From: Acidisarcina sp.
GTDB taxonomy: Bacteria; Acidobacteriota; Terriglobia; Terriglobales; Acidobacteriaceae
Direction of reading: 5' to 3'
DNA length: 64,000 nucleotides
Assembly (NCBI GenBank): GCA_035539175.1
Contig: DATLIY010000006.1
Span: forward strand, 62,001-126,000
This document shows, piece after piece, positions 50,224 through 57,224 of the stretch (position 1 is its first letter; the number at the start of each line of letters is the position of its first letter). The notes below the pieces were generated by a model. The model worked only from the letters and a program-made list of their open reading frames with translations. It did not search any database and was not told where the DNA came from. A program made the translations under genes and the position numbers.

Positions 50224-50398
50224 GTATGAACTCGCCTTCTCTATCCTTCGCAAAGAAACAACAAACGCTCCGGAACAAGGTGCGCGATGGCATTGAACAT
50301 CGGGTGTTATCCATTGGTTCGCGAATTGTTAACAGTTTGCAAATTGAGGGGCTGACTTCGGGAGATTGGGTCTTTCTAGACACTCCTTGTGTGTAGAG

Positions 50399-53272
50399 AT
50401 GCAGATATTCAGTTTTCAACCCAAGCAGGAGCAGCGCGCAAGGTTCGAGGATATTGTCCTCGCATACTATCCCCGTCTCTTGCAGTGGGCCCTGCAGCTC
50501 ACCCACGACCGTTCGGAGGCCGAGGACCTCGTACAGGAACTGTACCTGCGTGTTGCGCGCATCGATGCTGCGCCTGAGACCATTGAAAACATCGACAGTT
50601 ATCTGTTCTTCGTGCTTCGCAATCTGCACTATGAAAACTTGCGGCGGGCGCGGACCAGCGCAATCGACGACCTCGCGATCGTGGATCATGAATCTCTGGC
50701 GCGAGGACTGCGAGCGGTGGACCACAGCAAGCTACCGTTTGTCCGCGCCGAACTGGAACATGTTTGTGACTATCTCTGCGATCGAAAGATCACATCTCGC
50801 TCTGCAAGCATTCTGCTCCTCCGTTTCTTTCTTGGGTATTTCCCGGGAGAAGTGATGAAAGTCGCACAGATGAGCCGGACGGCGGTCGATAAGGCCGTAC
50901 GCCTGGCGCGACAAGAAGTGCGGCTGGACCTCGCTGCGAATACCGGCCCTCGAAGGACAGAGCGCGATCGGGAACGGAGAGTGGGAGCGCGCGATTCCAA
51001 GGGGGATCCGCAGGCTCTGTTCCTGGCACTCCGCGCACAGGTGTTTGATGGGTGCTCGGGACAGTGTTTCGCGCGTGGCTTCTTGCAGCGGCAGTATGCC
51101 AACCCGGGCCCTGGATTCACGACCGAGGAACTGGCGCACCTAGTCAGTTGCCGCAACTGTCTGGACAAGGCCAATGCGATCCTGGGACTCCCATTGCTTG
51201 CCGAACGATTTCTGGATGAGACCATCGGCCGCGACACGCCGCAAGGGCCAGACGGAGACTCCGGTGGCAGCGGCATGCCGACTCTTATTCGTGGTTGGGG
51301 TAAACGCCCGAAAGAGAATGTTGCTCAGATCCGCCGGCGAATGGAGAGGCGTGTTCTGGAGGCCATGCAGCACCGTCCGCAGCGTTTGCTTGTCGTAGTG
51401 GACGGGGATATTCGAGCCTCTCAACGGGTGACCGCGCCACTGAGCGAATTGCAGGTGGAATTGGGCCGACATGAAAAGCCCACTTACATTGAGATTCTGA
51501 GCGAACAAAATATTTGCATCGCATTCCTGATGGTGCGTACGCCAGACCTGAGCCAGGAACTCGATCAGCTCCGCGAGATTCAATTGAGCGATGACCGGAC
51601 GATAGAGTTGCTCATTTCTTTTGCCATGGAGACCCCGACGATTCAGGTAATTTATCGCGATCCGCTCGTGAGCCTGGATGGTGCTTTGGAGGAGCCGGGC
51701 GAAATGGCGATTCCCGTCACCCTGTCAGCGAGTTCCATGAACGCTACTCCTTCCAGGCCAGCCGCGGACGGATACGCATCTCTGCGCCATTGGGTCCGCT
51801 CCTGGTTCCCCCGAATTTCCCCTCCAAAGATGAGCCCTTTATTTGCAAGCGCAATGGTGCTTGGATTTGCCTCGATTCTCTGCTTCGTATTCTGGATGCG
51901 CAGTGGTCCCAACGTCTCGGCGAAAGAACTTCTCACACGCGCAGAAGCATGGGATGCTTCCGCTGCGAGTACGAGCAAGCCCGGGGTCATTTATCAAAGA
52001 ATCCGGATAAGCACACCGAACCGGAGCGTTGAGCGAACGATCTACCGCGATCCGGCAGGCAAGCGGAAACCTCGGCAACACGAATTGGACAACATCGACC
52101 AGCAACTCAAAATGCGCCTTGAATCCGCGGGAGTGAGTTGGGACGCGCCGCTCTCCGCCAGCAGCTTTCAGGCCTGGCATGATCGCCAGCGTTCCGTCCG
52201 TGACACAGTGACGCGCAGCGAGAATCTCCTTACACTCACCAGTTTCGCAAGTGACAGTGGGCCGATCATGCAGGAGACGCTGACTGTTCGCGAGAGCGAC
52301 TTCCATCCAGTGCGGCGCAGCATCGACATGCGCGGCGTTGGCAACATCGAAATTGCTGAGCTGAATTACGATGTGATGCCCTGGGGAGCGCTGGATGGCG
52401 ACTGGTTTGAACCGAGCGTTGCACCGCTTGTCAATCCCCATCGAGGCCCCGGCGTGCTTTCGCATCCTCTCATTCCATTGAGCGAGGATGAATTAGACGA
52501 GGCGGATCTGGGCGTGCGACTTGCGTTGAATCAGCTTGGCGCCGACACGGGTGAGAGGGTAACCATGGTGCGGACGCCTACCGGAATTCAGGTCAAGGGC
52601 ATTGTGGCCACCGAAGATCGGAAGCGTGAAATTGAAGCGCGGCTGTTTCTGATTCCGCATGTGACTCCGCTCATTTTTACCTTTAACGAGATTCAGAGTC
52701 GGCCGGAAGAGGGGGACTCGATCGCGAGTATTGCGTCGGTCTCCGACGCGGCACAAGCATCACCGTTCGAAAATTACCTGGTGGAGCACGGAAAGAGTCG
52801 CGAGTATGCGCGTCAGAGTTCTGCAGACCTGCTCGATAGCGCAATTTCGATCAAGCAGAGCAGCCTTGCCATCATGAAGCTGCTGCACGATTTCAGCGAT
52901 GGAAGGCCGATGACGCCTGCGGCTCAGATGTTACACAAGCAGCTTGTCGAACTGCACAGGGGCAAGCTGCACGCCGCGATCAGCAGGCAGGAGAGCCTCC
53001 TTGCAGCCATGGGTCTAAGCCATGCAGCGTCAGGAACTCCGTCCCCTCCGGACGGTGACCTTGAAGCAGTTGCTAATCGGAACCTTGCGTTGTGCAAGTT
53101 GCTAAGCCGGCAAGATGGCGGCTCAAAAGAATCCGCACAGCCTCTTCTGGAGGAGTTGGCCGATTCGGCGGCAAAGATCAATATTGTCGTCCAACGAATG
53201 GATGTGAATTCATCCTCATCCCACGCCAGTCTTGACGCAGGAAGATCCACTCAACCCGACCAACATCGATAG
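50399..53272 (+). CDS. ECF sigma factor fused to zinc site, membrane helix and large C-terminal domain
   Basis: A 957-residue fusion. Residues ~18-90 match sigma region 2 (LAYYPRLLQWALQLTHDRSE, AEDLVQELYLRV, SYLFFVLRNLHYENLRRAR) and ~125-185 match region 4 with a helix-turn-helix (KVAQMSRTAVDKAVRLARQE). A short site with H-x3-C-x2-C spacing, HLVSCRNC (His 247, Cys 251, Cys 254), resembles anti-sigma zinc fingers. After a further mixed region (LLVVVDGDIRAS, residues ~330-445) there is one membrane helix at ~481-501, then about 450 residues that should lie outside the cytoplasm, with no domain recognised. The ATG at 50399 replaces a TTG at 50366. TonB receptor 3 starts 13 bases after its stop, so the two are an operon and probably a signalling pair. 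Confidence 0.85.
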   Translation: MQIFSFQPKQEQRARFEDIVLAYYPRLLQWALQLTHDRSEAEDLVQELYLRVARIDAAPETIENIDSYLFFVLRNLHYENLRRARTSAIDDLAIVDHESLARGLRAVDHSKLPFVRAELEHVCDYLCDRKITSRSASILLLRFFLGYFPGEVMKVAQMSRTAVDKAVRLARQEVRLDLAANTGPRRTERDRERRVGARDSKGDPQALFLALRAQVFDGCSGQCFARGFLQRQYANPGPGFTTEELAHLVSCRNCLDKANAILGLPLLAERFLDETIGRDTPQGPDGDSGGSGMPTLIRGWGKRPKENVAQIRRRMERRVLEAMQHRPQRLLVVVDGDIRASQRVTAPLSELQVELGRHEKPTYIEILSEQNICIAFLMVRTPDLSQELDQLREIQLSDDRTIELLISFAMETPTIQVIYRDPLVSLDGALEEPGEMAIPVTLSASSMNATPSRPAADGYASLRHWVRSWFPRISPPKMSPLFASAMVLGFASILCFVFWMRSGPNVSAKELLTRAEAWDASAASTSKPGVIYQRIRISTPNRSVERTIYRDPAGKRKPRQHELDNIDQQLKMRLESAGVSWDAPLSASSFQAWHDRQRSVRDTVTRSENLLTLTSFASDSGPIMQETLTVRESDFHPVRRSIDMRGVGNIEIAELNYDVMPWGALDGDWFEPSVAPLVNPHRGPGVLSHPLIPLSEDELDEADLGVRLALNQLGADTGERVTMVRTPTGIQVKGIVATEDRKREIEARLFLIPHVTPLIFTFNEIQSRPEEGDSIASIASVSDAAQASPFENYLVEHGKSREYARQSSADLLDSAISIKQSSLAIMKLLHDFSDGRPMTPAAQMLHKQLVELHRGKLHAAISRQESLLAAMGLSHAASGTPSPPDGDLEAVANRNLALCKLLSRQDGGSKESAQPLLEELADSAAKINIVVQRMDVNSSSSHASLDAGRSTQPDQHR

Positions 53273-53285
53273 GAAGTGACGAATC

Positions 53286-56200
53286 ATGTCTCTAAGGTTT
53301 TTGAAACACTTGACGTGTGTCTGTGTCTTTCTTGGCGTCATGGCGCATGCGCAGACGGCACGATTTACAGGCCAGGTCACAGATCCGCAAAACGCCGCGA
53401 TTGCCAATGCCGAAGTACAGGTGGTCAATCAGGAAACCCTGGTGAGGGTGTCCACCAAGACGGACAACAGCGGTGCTTATGCCGTTCCTTACCTTACTGC
53501 TGGAAAATATCAGGTCATCGTTCGCGCAGACGGATTCAGCCAGTCTGCAAGCAGCAACTTATTCCTCCGCGTTGGAGAAGCACTCATCTATAACGTGCAG
53601 TTAAGCGTGGGCGCTGCGCAGGACTCCGTTACCGTTGACGGTGGAGCATCCTCGGTCGTGCAGGTAGATACCGCAAATGCGGAAGTCAGTGGCACGGTAA
53701 CCAGCAAAGAAGTGGCGGGGCTTCAACTGAACGGGCGCAACTTCACTCAGTTGATCAGCCTTGTGCCTGGAGTTAGCAATCAGACGCAACAGGATGAGGC
53801 GAAGGTCGGCGTGCTGGGAAGCGTCGCGTACTCCGTCAACGGTGGACGTACGGAGTACAACAGCTTTCAGGTCGACGGTTCAGAAACCCTCAACACCGGA
53901 ATCAACAAGGATCACAGCACGCTGTTGGTGTATCCCAGCGTGGATGCCATTCAGGAAATCAAGGTTCTGACCTCGAACTATGGGGCGCAGTATCCCAGCA
54001 CCGGCAATGCAACCACGCTGGTGACAACCAAGTCGGGTACCAACGAGTTTCACGGCAATGCGTACGAGTTCATTCGCAACGAAAACCTGAATGCTAAGGG
54101 GTACTTCGACGTCACGAACGGCGCGCCTCTGTACCGGCGCAATGACTTCGGCGGAACCATCGGCGGTCCGGTCCTCGCTCCACATCTCTACGATGGACGC
54201 AACAAGACGTACTTCTTCTTCTCGGAAGAAGCGCGCCTGGAGAAGAGTCCCACGGCCTACCGGCAAGCCGTGCCATCGCTGGCGGAAAGGGCGGGCGATT
54301 TTAGCGATGTATGTCCCTATTTGCCACCAGGCGGGACGAATGACTTTCCCGGTCCCGGCTATCCCGACTGTCCCAGCGGCCTGGGTATCATCAACAACAA
54401 CCTGGGTAACCTGGAGCCGTTGTCTCCGGCTTCGCTTGCCATTCTCAATACGGGCGTTATTCCCGCTCCCAATTCTTATACCGGATGCAATGGCGGCTCC
54501 AGTCCCACCGGATCCTGCTATCTGGCCGATATCTCTCTGCCGACCTACTATCGTGAAGAGCTTTTCCGCATCGACCACACGCTCAGCGATAAGACGCAGG
54601 CCAGCTTCCGTTACATCCACGATGAATGGGACACAACTACGCCTGTTCCCCAGTTCAGCAACATTACCAATAGCTTCCCAACCATTCAGAACCGGTTCTA
54701 CGGTCCGGGGCGCAGCCTGGTGGCGCGTGTGACCCACACCTTTAGTCCCACGCTTCTGAATGAATTTGTCACCAGCTATACGAATTCGTCTATCACCCTT
54801 GCGGATGTGCCAGCGCCCTTCGTCTCGCTGCGGCGGCCGGCAACGCTCGACGCCGCGCCATGCGCCTATGGAACTCCGGGCCAGGCTTGCGGAATGGGCT
54901 CCATTTTTAACAACGGCTTCGGGGGCAAGCTTCCCGCTATCGTAATCGGCGGTAACAATGCGGAGTATGGCGGTTACGGTTTCAGCGTCGATCCCAGCTA
55001 CATGCCCTGGAAGCACAGCAATCCGACTTACAGCTTTTCAGACAACCTGAACAAGATGCTCGGGAAGCACAGCTTCTCGTTCGGCGCGCAGTGGCTCATC
55101 TTTCAGCGCAACCAGATCAACGGTCCGATCGGCGCGGCCACGGGCGATGTCCAGGGAATCCTGACGTATAGCAACGAGCAGTCGGCTCACACAACAGGCA
55201 ATGCGTTTGCAGATTTTCTCCTGCAGCCAACATCGGTTCCGGAAGGGAACAACTTCCATCGATTCAGTTACGGCGGTCCCGCGAGCTTCCAGCAGGACAG
55301 CGCCCAGGCCAGGTACTATCAGCGGTTCCAGATTGTCGAGCCCTACTTTCAAGACGATTGGAAAGCAACCTCTCGCCTCACCGTTAATGCGGGCTTGCGT
55401 GTAAGTCTCTTCGGCACGTATCGCGAGAAGAACCATAGCGCCTATAACTGGCTTCCAACCGCTTTCAACCAGGCGGTATCGCGGACTCTCCACGTAGCCA
55501 ACAACGGCCAGCTGATCGACAATGCCAGCAGCACTCCGGTCCCGATCTACGGAGCCAATGGGGCACCCGATCCGCGTGTGATCAACGGCATCGTGCAATG
55601 TGGCGTGAACGGTGTTCCCGCTGGGTGCATGGCGGGTCACCTGTGGAACCCTGCGCCTCGTGTGGGCTTCGCATGGGATCCACTCGGCAACGGAAAGACC
55701 TCGATCCGCGCCGGCTACGGCATCTTCTTCGAGCACGGTACAGCCGACGAAGCCAATAGCGGGTCGCTCGAGGGCAGTGCTCCGATGGTGCTGAGTATGA
55801 CGCAGCTCAGTCCACTCGGTATCGGCTGCATCGGCAACAGCGCTCCGGGATGTTCAAGCACCGGATCGGGCGCGTTCCCGCTCAACGTTACAAAGATTCC
55901 CACCAAGGCGCAGTGGTCCTATGTGCAGCAGTGGAGCATGAGCGCAGAGCGCCAGTTGCCGCAGAACATGCTGGCCAGCTTTGCCTATGTGGGCAGCAAG
56001 GGAACGCACCTGACCACGGAGCGCGAATTGAACCAGTTGATTCCGATTCCGGCAGGTACTACGCCTTTCAAAAAGCACCAGCCCCTCACTAAGGCGGATT
56101 GCGGATCTGGTTCCAGTGCTGCAGGTTTCGACGGCTACTACTATCACCTCGAGAACCGCGCAACCATCGGACCTTCCGATCCCGGCTTCATCAACATGGA

Positions 56201-57224
56201 GGCAGCCTGTTATGGACAGGGCACCGGCGGCCAGATTGACCCCAACGCGCTTCGGGAATTCGCGCCGGGCATGGGCCAGATCTACTCGCTCGAGAACATC
56301 GCCAACTCGCATTACCATGCGTTTCAGGCAACACTGCGCAAGGTCACCGATAGCCTGACGCTAGGCGTCGCTTATACCTACAGCCACTCCATAGACGACG
56401 CATCGGATCGTTCGGACGCGACGTTCGTCAACTCGTTCGATCTGCGCTCCAATCGGTCCAGCTCCAACTTCGATCAGCGCCATCTGCTCCACATCAGCTA
56501 CATCGCCAATCTCAAGTTGTGGCAGTGGGCACAATCTTTCTGGAACGGAATCAACACCGATCCCAGCGGCGATGCAAGTTTGAACCCGCCGCACGCGGAC
56601 TTCGGAACATCGAAGATTGTCCGCGGTGTACTCGATGGCTGGCAGCTCTCTGGGTTGACACTCTTCGAATCCGGCATCCCCTTTACCGTGGTTAACGGCG
56701 GCAGCGCCAACGGCATCTCGTTCCTCGACAACGCAGGTGTGGATAACGGCGTTGGCTCGGGCTCCTATCCGGATCTGGTTGGTTCTGCCCACAGCCACGT
56801 TCCCGCCGGCGGCAACAACGGGAACAGCTTTGGACCCCTGTTGCTCAACCCCGGCGCATTTGCAGCTCCGCAGGGACTCACCTTTGGAAACGCAGGCCGC
56901 AATGTTCTAAACAACCCGCATCGCTGGAACTTCGACGCTGCTTTGCAGAGGCGCATTCCTCTGCCATTTGAAAGAACCTCTCTGGACTTCCGTGCGGAAG
57001 CCTTCAACGTCTTCAATCACACGCAGTTCCGCATCTACGATCCGACTCTCGGGAATCAGCCGCAGAACACCGCCAGTTGCTATGGTCCCACCAGTTATTC
57101 GGCCGGTGATCCAGGCGGAGAAGTCAAGGGGGATCCGGGGTGCCTGAATGGAAGCTCCTTCCTGCATCCGGTCGATGCGCACCGTCCACGCACCATTCAA
57201 TTCGGCGTGAAGCTGGCCTTTTAA
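53286..57224 (+). CDS. Oar-like TonB-dependent receptor 3
   Basis: A 1312-residue outer-membrane protein with a signal peptide (LKHLTCVCVFLGVMAHAQ), a carboxypeptidase-regulatory-like domain (residues ~22-100: GQVTDPQNAAIANAEVQV, SGAYAVPYLTAGKYQV), a plug (~110-240, ending with VTTKSGTNEFHGNAYEFIRN) and a long beta-barrel ending in QFGVKLAF with a terminal Phe. It begins 13 bases after the sigma fusion and is followed 18 bases later by a lipoprotein gene, so it is the core of an operon whose regulator, receptor and surface proteins are encoded together. The substrate cannot be read from sequence; the sigma fusion suggests induction by its ligand. Confidence 0.96.
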   Translation: MSLRFLKHLTCVCVFLGVMAHAQTARFTGQVTDPQNAAIANAEVQVVNQETLVRVSTKTDNSGAYAVPYLTAGKYQVIVRADGFSQSASSNLFLRVGEALIYNVQLSVGAAQDSVTVDGGASSVVQVDTANAEVSGTVTSKEVAGLQLNGRNFTQLISLVPGVSNQTQQDEAKVGVLGSVAYSVNGGRTEYNSFQVDGSETLNTGINKDHSTLLVYPSVDAIQEIKVLTSNYGAQYPSTGNATTLVTTKSGTNEFHGNAYEFIRNENLNAKGYFDVTNGAPLYRRNDFGGTIGGPVLAPHLYDGRNKTYFFFSEEARLEKSPTAYRQAVPSLAERAGDFSDVCPYLPPGGTNDFPGPGYPDCPSGLGIINNNLGNLEPLSPASLAILNTGVIPAPNSYTGCNGGSSPTGSCYLADISLPTYYREELFRIDHTLSDKTQASFRYIHDEWDTTTPVPQFSNITNSFPTIQNRFYGPGRSLVARVTHTFSPTLLNEFVTSYTNSSITLADVPAPFVSLRRPATLDAAPCAYGTPGQACGMGSIFNNGFGGKLPAIVIGGNNAEYGGYGFSVDPSYMPWKHSNPTYSFSDNLNKMLGKHSFSFGAQWLIFQRNQINGPIGAATGDVQGILTYSNEQSAHTTGNAFADFLLQPTSVPEGNNFHRFSYGGPASFQQDSAQARYYQRFQIVEPYFQDDWKATSRLTVNAGLRVSLFGTYREKNHSAYNWLPTAFNQAVSRTLHVANNGQLIDNASSTPVPIYGANGAPDPRVINGIVQCGVNGVPAGCMAGHLWNPAPRVGFAWDPLGNGKTSIRAGYGIFFEHGTADEANSGSLEGSAPMVLSMTQLSPLGIGCIGNSAPGCSSTGSGAFPLNVTKIPTKAQWSYVQQWSMSAERQLPQNMLASFAYVGSKGTHLTTERELNQLIPIPAGTTPFKKHQPLTKADCGSGSSAAGFDGYYYHLENRATIGPSDPGFINMEAACYGQGTGGQIDPNALREFAPGMGQIYSLENIANSHYHAFQATLRKVTDSLTLGVAYTYSHSIDDASDRSDATFVNSFDLRSNRSSSNFDQRHLLHISYIANLKLWQWAQSFWNGINTDPSGDASLNPPHADFGTSKIVRGVLDGWQLSGLTLFESGIPFTVVNGGSANGISFLDNAGVDNGVGSGSYPDLVGSAHSHVPAGGNNGNSFGPLLLNPGAFAAPQGLTFGNAGRNVLNNPHRWNFDAALQRRIPLPFERTSLDFRAEAFNVFNHTQFRIYDPTLGNQPQNTASCYGPTSYSAGDPGGEVKGDPGCLNGSSFLHPVDAHRPRTIQFGVKLAF

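Follow-up and report, generated by a model that had tools for sequence, protein, structure and literature searches.

A single Acidobacteriota membrane protein that appears to combine a sigma factor, an inbuilt brake and an external sensor

Results

Organization of the locus

The window analyzed here is a 64,000-nucleotide stretch of the genome of Acidisarcina sp., a soil bacterium of the phylum Acidobacteriota (GenBank assembly GCA_035539175.1, contig DATLIY010000006.1, positions 62,001 to 126,000). It encodes a 957-residue protein, a single long chain in which a factor that switches genes, a brake on that factor and a sensor facing outward appear to be united (Table 1). The open reading frame (ORF) is unbroken from its ATG to its stop, a longer start at a TTG (50366) being possible, and the ORF of an Oar-like outer-membrane receptor begins 13 bases past that stop, as described in the initial annotation of this DNA. 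We found that the N-terminal part matches sigma-70 region 2 (PF04542, E 2.3e-9, above the cut-off, residues 20-85) and passes the model of the whole extracytoplasmic function (ECF) sigma factor, TIGR02937 (44.8 against a cut-off of 42.9 bits, residues 16-175), in agreement with the ECF sigma assignment made there. As for the two sigma regions claimed, region 2 stands by PF04542; region 4 is carried by TIGR02937 and is divergent, Sigma70_r4_2 being matched at E ≤ 5 in 5 of the 12 rows of set A1 (best 0.00096), and the window protein itself has no Pfam match for this region.

Table 1. Features of the fused gene and its surroundings (window coordinates).
Feature	Residues	Position	Strand	Basis
Promoter-like element GCAAATTG-N16-AGATTGGG, weak candidate autoregulated promoter		50339..50370	+	Gibbs motif
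Fused ECF sigma / ZAS anti-sigma / transmembrane / periplasmic sensor protein	957 aa	50399..53272	+	ORF and profile matches
ECF sigma domain	~16-177	50444..50929	+	PF04542, TIGR02937
ZAS-type zinc site (C223, H247, C251, C254)	~218-259	51050..51175	+	Motif conservation
Cytoplasmic region with strand-rich domain	~296-477	51284..51829	+	Hidden Markov model (HMM), strands of low-confidence model
Transmembrane helix; shared inheritance changes over here	~480-501	51836..51901	+	Hydropathy, model, sliding comparison
Predicted LolA/RseB-like periplasmic domain	~506-655	51914..52363	+	AlphaFold2 (AF2) block of predicted local distance difference test (pLDDT) 59-91, Foldseek, VIA
Predicted BON-like module	~695-762	52481..52684	+	VIA; sub-threshold sequence matches
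Helical C-terminal tail	~789-942	52763..53224	+	Secondary structure of low-confidence full-length model
Oar-like outer-membrane receptor, TonB-type by family	1312 aa	53286..57224	+	CarboxypepD_reg and OMP_b-brl_4 (PF13620 and PF25183)
Lipoprotein, third gene	457 aa	57243..58616	+	Lipobox-like VIGC read by eye; homologues downstream
Giant NHL / Big_3 immunoglobulin (Ig)-like protein, leaves the window	at least 1782 aa	58653..63998	+	Profile matches, conserved gene order

Fused and split relatives

A sensor profile search covered 398 genomes of the window's family, the window's own included, of which 57 matched. Ninety further regions were fetched besides the earlier ones and classified, giving 42 fused and 64 split rows after removal of two duplicates (L039, equal to L036, and L055, equal to L037); the totals are lower bounds, at most 5 candidates per genome being scored with the sensor profile and at most 9 in the search described next. 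In all 42 fused rows the next gene, on the same strand, matched an outer-membrane protein (OMP) profile, and 41 of them had it within 60 bp. The search with the strand-rich cytoplasmic domain of the fused proteins was positive in 30 of the 398 family genomes and, among 396 genomes of the phylum, in 9, three of which belong to other families; nine more intact fused proteins came to light in this way, and in every case the next gene encodes an OMP. In total, an Oar-like OMP gene followed on the same strand in 51/51 intact fused proteins from at least 31 genomes including the window's, with a gap of at most 150 bp in 50 of them (L059, with 329 bp, is the exception); some of the OMP ORFs are cut at contig ends, and L155 (contig end) and L156 (fragment) were left out of the fused count. 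The coupling of fusion and receptor, for which a survey had been suggested, thus recurs across the set, and since 51 intact fused proteins occur in 31 genomes, an artefact of frameshift or fused annotation was ruled out. A paralogue of 986 residues, with an OMP gene 48 bp downstream, lies elsewhere in the window's genome (L038), and genome G035 carries nine sensor-bearing loci, six intact fused and three split. A close relative from a lichen metagenome-assembled genome (L037:8001-10420) lies in two overlapping ORFs, either by assembly error or as a pseudogene, and was counted apart.

In the split rows an ECF sigma gene lies directly upstream of the sensor gene in 62 of 64, and the zinc-binding anti-sigma (ZAS) profile is matched by 58 of 64. 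The split anti-sigma protein has the zinc site first, then a transmembrane helix, and then the same sensor. The composition of the fused chain is therefore shown by its split relatives, which encode a sigma factor and a ZAS anti-sigma factor with the same sensor in adjacent genes; occurrence of the parts as separate unlinked genes, raised earlier as a counter-argument, was not what these relatives displayed. In L147, a locus from another family of the phylum, the sigma factor (195 aa) has a gene of its own. Just upstream lies a 458-aa ORF that combines the zinc motif and the strand-rich domain with a transmembrane helix, and a branch with an SH-aLRT support of 100 sets the L147 sigma factor and the 51 fused ones apart from the rest. 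This unfused relative of the head (L147:4739-6732) has the anti-sigma gene before the sigma gene, reversing the order seen in the fusion, and is followed by a 991-aa ORF. A simpler sigma/ZAS/sensor fusion of 873 aa, L095:4343-6964, belongs to the split sigma group, lacks the strand-rich domain and is independent.

Directly downstream of split sensors near the window's, a 1306-1374 aa ORF was found at 16 loci, and a homologue of the L043 ORF is held by 17 loci. The large downstream ORFs of L043, L060, L074 and L082 have lipoprotein-like starts as read by eye, and that of L043 (L043:7786-11715) had no Pfam match at E ≤ 0.01. Because some split sensors precede such large lipoprotein-like ORFs, the sensor class adjoins genes of envelope or secreted proteins generally; an Oar-like OMP is frequent among these neighbors but not universal. 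At L112:6824-10258, a split sigma/anti-sigma pair is followed by a subtilase (Peptidase_S8) gene.

Zinc site, cytoplasmic region and membrane helix

The H-x3-C-x2-C site noted previously was recovered as H247-x3-C251-x2-C254, to which we add a nearly invariant C223. The pattern [H/C]x3CxxC was present in 42/42 fused and 59/59 split rows examined. The fused motif reads C-x23-H-x3-C-x2-C, with H, C and C invariant and the C at -24 in at least 90% of 37 fused rows, and the split motif H-x24-H-x3-C-x2-C, with H, H, C and C invariant in 39 split rows. Compared with solved anti-sigma factors, the split ZAS profile matched ChrR (7e-8) and RsiW (1e-4), and also DdvA and 3hug, and zf-HC2 was matched at E ≤ 0.1 by 33 of 39 split anti-sigma proteins.

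About 180 cytoplasmic residues separate the zinc site from the membrane, a region that the initial annotation passed over. We found a strand-rich stretch there, at about residues 330-420, and by HMM the corresponding domain is present in 40/42 fused rows and 0/64 split rows; comparison with Pfam and the PDB gave no consistent family for it. A hydropathy scan detected one transmembrane stretch, at about 478-503, in line with the single helix proposed at 481-501. The full-length AF2 model had a mean pLDDT of 47.6, too poor for a fold search, and was therefore used for secondary structure alone.

Predicted folds of the periplasmic part

The outer ~455 residues of the window protein match no Pfam family, so that the absence of a recognized domain reported for this part stands at the sequence level; it does not stand at the level of predicted structure. 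An AF2 model of residues 506-780 (input of 3 sequences, mean pLDDT 68) matched LolA by Foldseek (1.6e-6), and by VIA a LolA-like protein (Z 11.7, 134 aligned, 3.4 A), RseB (Z 9.6, 132 aligned, 4.3 A) and MucB (Z 9.3, 132 aligned, 3.3 A). The second module matched BonA (Z 7.7, 73 aligned, 3.2 A) and DolP (Z 7.1, 67 aligned, 2.7 A). The outside part is thus predicted to consist of a LolA/RseB-like fold and a BON-like module, the latter being less certain because, according to the tool's own note, a Z below 8 can reflect a common arrangement. By sequence, Pfam BON was matched below threshold in 4/88 members of the sensor family (best 0.015), and solved relatives likewise gave sub-threshold matches alone, BON included (best BON 0.032).

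The FecR profile check gave no FecR match by Pfam in the window protein at E ≤ 1, nor in the 12 rows of A1 at E ≤ 5. For the sensor, Pfam revealed no FecR, STN or secretin homology, one of the scans giving the best 25 of 31 families. PupR-like structures were absent among the 50 VIA matches listed for the sensor model, which carries no weight.

Inheritance of the head and of the sensor

L037, L143 (a fragment) and L088 (an interrupted gene in two pieces) were dropped from the trees, and the motif count given above was made without L133 as well. Of the 42 fused sigmas in the sigma tree (102 rows), 41 fall on one side of a branch with an SH-aLRT support of 100, and 40 fused sigmas, all but L090 and L095, were not rejected as one group (p-AU 0.267). 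In the sensor tree, from which three rows with fewer than 200 matched residues were also removed (102 to 99 rows), the fused label requires 8 changes, at least 4 of them forced by starred branches.

Distances were compared at 36 loci, leaving out L090, L095 and loci with receptor ORFs shorter than 700 aa (L040, L044, L057, L131). Receptor distance followed sensor distance with a partial rank r of 0.495 given the sigma and the middle part (0/999 permutations as high), and the partial correlation of receptor with sigma given the sensor was -0.012 (561/999). In sliding windows up to residue 451 the correlation was 0.47-0.89 with sigma and 0.02-0.24 with the receptor; from residue 481 it was 0.29-0.58 with all receptor thirds and 0.17-0.27 with sigma. 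Residues 1-450 thus share their history with the sigma factor and those from about 480 with the receptor, the changeover lying near the transmembrane helix. Two loci illustrate this: L066 is 0.79 identical to the window in the receptor and 0.34 in sigma, and L056 0.62 in sigma and 0.30 in the receptor. Plain distance along the DNA does not explain the pattern, since sigma lies nearer to the sensor than the last third of the receptor does; block transfer of sensor and receptor would explain it.

Receptor, downstream genes and promoter-like element

All 36 of the receptor N-termini scanned carry CarboxypepD_reg, and 21 of the 36 also match Plug, the window's not among them. In the window receptor, for which one Pfam scan listed 7 families at E ≤ 1 and another 12 at E ≤ 0.1, neither STN nor Plug was detected, and STN was not among the best 25 of 43 Pfam families for the 36 receptors. 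As the window receptor has no Plug match, its TonB dependence rests on family resemblance.

A homologue of the lipoprotein encoded by the third gene occurs downstream in 12/12 other fused loci with a receptor identity of about 0.60 or above, and in 0/29 remaining listed fused loci, some of which end soon after the receptor. The giant NHL/Ig gene was seen in 10 of 12 lipoprotein-bearing fused loci. The lipoprotein and the giant protein are thus conserved with the receptor subfamily of the window, and within this cassette subfamily (13 loci) the sensor-receptor partial r was 0.52 (6/999). At L044:3-5477 the order is unusual, an Oar-like receptor (47% to the window's) and a lipoprotein homologue lying directly upstream of the fused gene.

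A promoter-like element of two blocks lies upstream of the fused gene. The Gibbs motif scored 130.6 in set c16 (10 loci related by sigma) against 105.8-112.2 in 4 letter-shuffled sets, and 176.3 in c12 against 121.2-128.6, with 6 restarts for real sets and 2 per shuffled set, a bias that favors the real ones. The window copy is degenerate, 3 bases off GCGAATAT. A close form, GxGAATAx-N16-xGATT, stands 35-38 bp before the estimated start in five loci (L057, L040, L058, L068 and L081), and a pair search in larger sets gave a modest excess. G035, G181 and G121 each have a single exact match to GCGAATAT-N16-WGATT, just upstream of the fused genes of L040, L058 and L068, respectively; G112 has two, one of them upstream of L081, and G350 has one, which does not precede the fused gene on its contig (L073). 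Since the motif was derived from the same loci, only its rarity elsewhere is informative.

Discussion

The periplasmic domain of IutY is FecR-like. To our knowledge, the sigmaE-RseA-RseB system has no receptor gene, and we know of no outer-membrane receptor for ECF52, ECF48 or ECF53. IutY of P. putida (ECF243) is described as a cytosolic sigma factor and a periplasmic anti-sigma domain in one chain, encoded beside the iutA receptor gene and processed by Prc and RseP, with proteolytic release shown (PMC5411451). Since a receptor-linked sigma/anti-sigma fusion is already known in IutY, the fusion idea itself is not new; of the one-piece transmembrane sigma switch put forward in the initial annotation, the single chain and its gene-order coupling to an Oar-like receptor are supported, both being conserved in many genomes. 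The window protein resembles IutY in joining a sigma factor and a membrane-bound anti-sigma factor in one chain, with one transmembrane helix and an adjoining TonB-type receptor gene. Unlike IutY, which has a periplasmic domain of the cell-surface signaling (CSS) type and a typical CSS receptor, it combines the ZAS and the strand-rich cytoplasmic domain with a periplasmic part predicted to be LolA/RseB-like and BON-like, and its receptor is Oar-like, with no STN detected.

With sigmaE-RseA-RseB and AlgU-MucA-MucB it shares an ECF sigma factor, a transmembrane anti-sigma factor and a periplasmic regulator of RseB fold, predicted in the case of the window, but those are sets of three separate proteins. 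In the fused and the split systems alike, the LolA/RseB-like domain belongs to the anti-sigma polypeptide itself and is not a separate RseA-binding protein. ECF48, ECF52 and ECF53 are described as C-terminal fusions with a zinc finger and transmembrane helices (one or two), expected to be proteolyzed, and SCO4117 of ECF52 also has an outside part (PMC8999054); compared by description, they differ from the window protein in being actinobacterial and, for SCO4117, in carrying a carbohydrate-binding domain (PMC8999054). Dma3 of Bacteroides is said to have an N-terminal sigma domain (PMC13088901), but Dma proteins differ in their disordered tether and in having a beta-barrel domain of their own at the C terminus. 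No such fusion is mentioned in the available portion of the Solibacter account (PMC3174227). Among titles and abstract openings we found no paper on the fused Acidobacteriota family, the head of which may already be a numbered ECF group in Casas-Pastor 2021.

From the comparison with IutY, ECF48/52/53, CSS and MucB, the window protein therefore most likely works like a fused sigmaE-RseA-RseB set, and as judged by Pfam profile tests it lies outside the FecI-FecR family; it is an addition to the known class of membrane-tethered ECF fusions. The LolA/RseB-like and BON-like outside part makes the chain resemble sigmaE, RseA and RseB in one, rather than FecI-FecR. We consider it fairly probable that the protein is a single-chain version of such a switch, in which a ZAS-braked sigma factor is released by sensor-triggered proteolysis and drives its own operon. 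The ZAS brake would keep the N-terminal ECF sigma of the same chain at the inner surface of the cytoplasmic membrane, and the transmembrane helix would link this brake to the periplasmic LolA/RseB-like and BON-like sensor. The sensor may detect a cassette-linked signal, either a substrate or a lipid or protein that is passing through the Oar-like transporter. Such a signal would lead to cutting of the periplasmic part and to intramembrane proteolysis of the RseP/M50 type, freeing the head; with the ZAS and strand-rich parts degraded, the sigma factor could then transcribe its own operon, namely the switch, the Oar-like transporter, the lipoprotein and the giant NHL/Ig protein. Genes for M50 and S41 proteases are present in the window's genome. 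The architecture of the chain, its conservation, the order of the genes and the modular inheritance are observed, the folds and the weak promoter-like element are predictions, and we infer the signal, the cleavage, the autoregulation and the receptor contact; that the fused protein controls the adjacent outer-membrane transporter gene is probable.

Several observations weigh against this interpretation. We found no experiment on the fused Acidobacteriota family in the literature. The sensor model comes from 3 sequences at the mean pLDDT given above, its Foldseek TM-scores are mostly 0.2-0.5, and LolA and RseB share one fold with different jobs, so that an RseB-like role of the sensor goes beyond the fold itself. 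The best solved anti-sigma factor for the fused ZAS profile was 3hug_B, at an E of 0.23, and hhalign of the fused with the split ZAS profile gave an E of 4e-4 with a probability of just 35%. A sensor-sigma link remains given the receptor (0.22, 0/999), and beyond the cassette subfamily the receptor-sensor partial r is just 0.25 (23/999). After 60 split rows stand 16 large lipoprotein-like genes and 10 other genes instead of an OMP gene, so that a TonB receptor is not an obligatory partner of the sensor. As for autoregulation, the Gibbs motif barely exceeded the shuffles in c8 (98.7 against 86.3-93.9) and c7 (89.4 against 77.5-86.0), the pair search in the four closest loci gave 2/4, the same as shuffles, the exact pattern was not found in the window's genome, and at one mismatch it occurs 7-13 times per genome against 0-4 for the reversed control.

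An alternative explanation is classical cell-surface signaling as in IutY, where the N-terminal domain of the receptor would contact the fused protein on its periplasmic side, and binding of substrate to the receptor would set off cleavage by Prc and RseP. The overall plan and gene neighborhood are those described for IutY-IutA (PMC5411451), receptor and sensor distances covary, and the CarboxypepD_reg domain at the receptor N-termini could serve as the contact. CSS contact is, however, described as running via STN-type domains of receptor and anti-sigma factor (PMC11637429), and among the families listed in the Pfam scans above there was neither STN for the receptors nor FecR for the window protein; moreover, some homologous sensors adjoin lipoprotein-like genes instead, and we regard this explanation as unlikely. 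Alternatively, the receptor might be a mere target gene, and the sensor, like RseB, might respond to envelope stress in general, in the form of lipid or misfolded OMP. The predicted folds would suit this, and MucB is reported to sense lipids in a hydrophobic cavity (PMC7400510), but co-inheritance of sensor and receptor apart from sigma suggests a matched pair, even if block transfer could produce it too, and on balance we doubt that stress sensing of this kind is the answer. Activation without cleavage, the sensor reshaping the chain so that sigma works while membrane-tethered, seems quite improbable, for although the strand-rich domain between ZAS and helix could be a hinge and ECF41-type extensions are thought to work by conformation (PMC8999054), IutY is reported to require cleavage (PMC5411451) and SCO4117 is proposed to (PMC8999054).

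Beyond the preferred reading of a proteolytically released switch, it is possible, if somewhat doubtful, that the switch is a modular one-component device with swappable parts, its conserved sigma/ZAS/strand-rich head having been joined repeatedly at the transmembrane helix to differing LolA/RseB-BON sensors that carried their own outer-membrane cassette. The sensor of the window's subfamily might then report lipoprotein or giant NHL/Ig cargo passing through an Oar-type exporter, so that secretion itself would control transcription; Oar is reported to be needed for PopC secretion in Myxococcus (PMC6434023). Independently of that reading, the lineage has a whole envelope-signaling chain, from sigma factor and brake to membrane helix and predicted RseB-like sensor, as one gene beside its likely target transporter. 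With the natural swaps of head and sensor at the helix, and with the split forms, it becomes possible to test which parts a sigma switch must be fused to, and also how outer-membrane receptors acquire matched regulators.

Two further features lie upstream of the fused gene. A second Oar-like OMP gene (1287 aa) is followed by a gene for a YncE-like beta-propeller (window:44459-49574), and a 139-aa ORF on the minus strand (window:49646-50065) encodes what we take to be a DUF2255-type protein.

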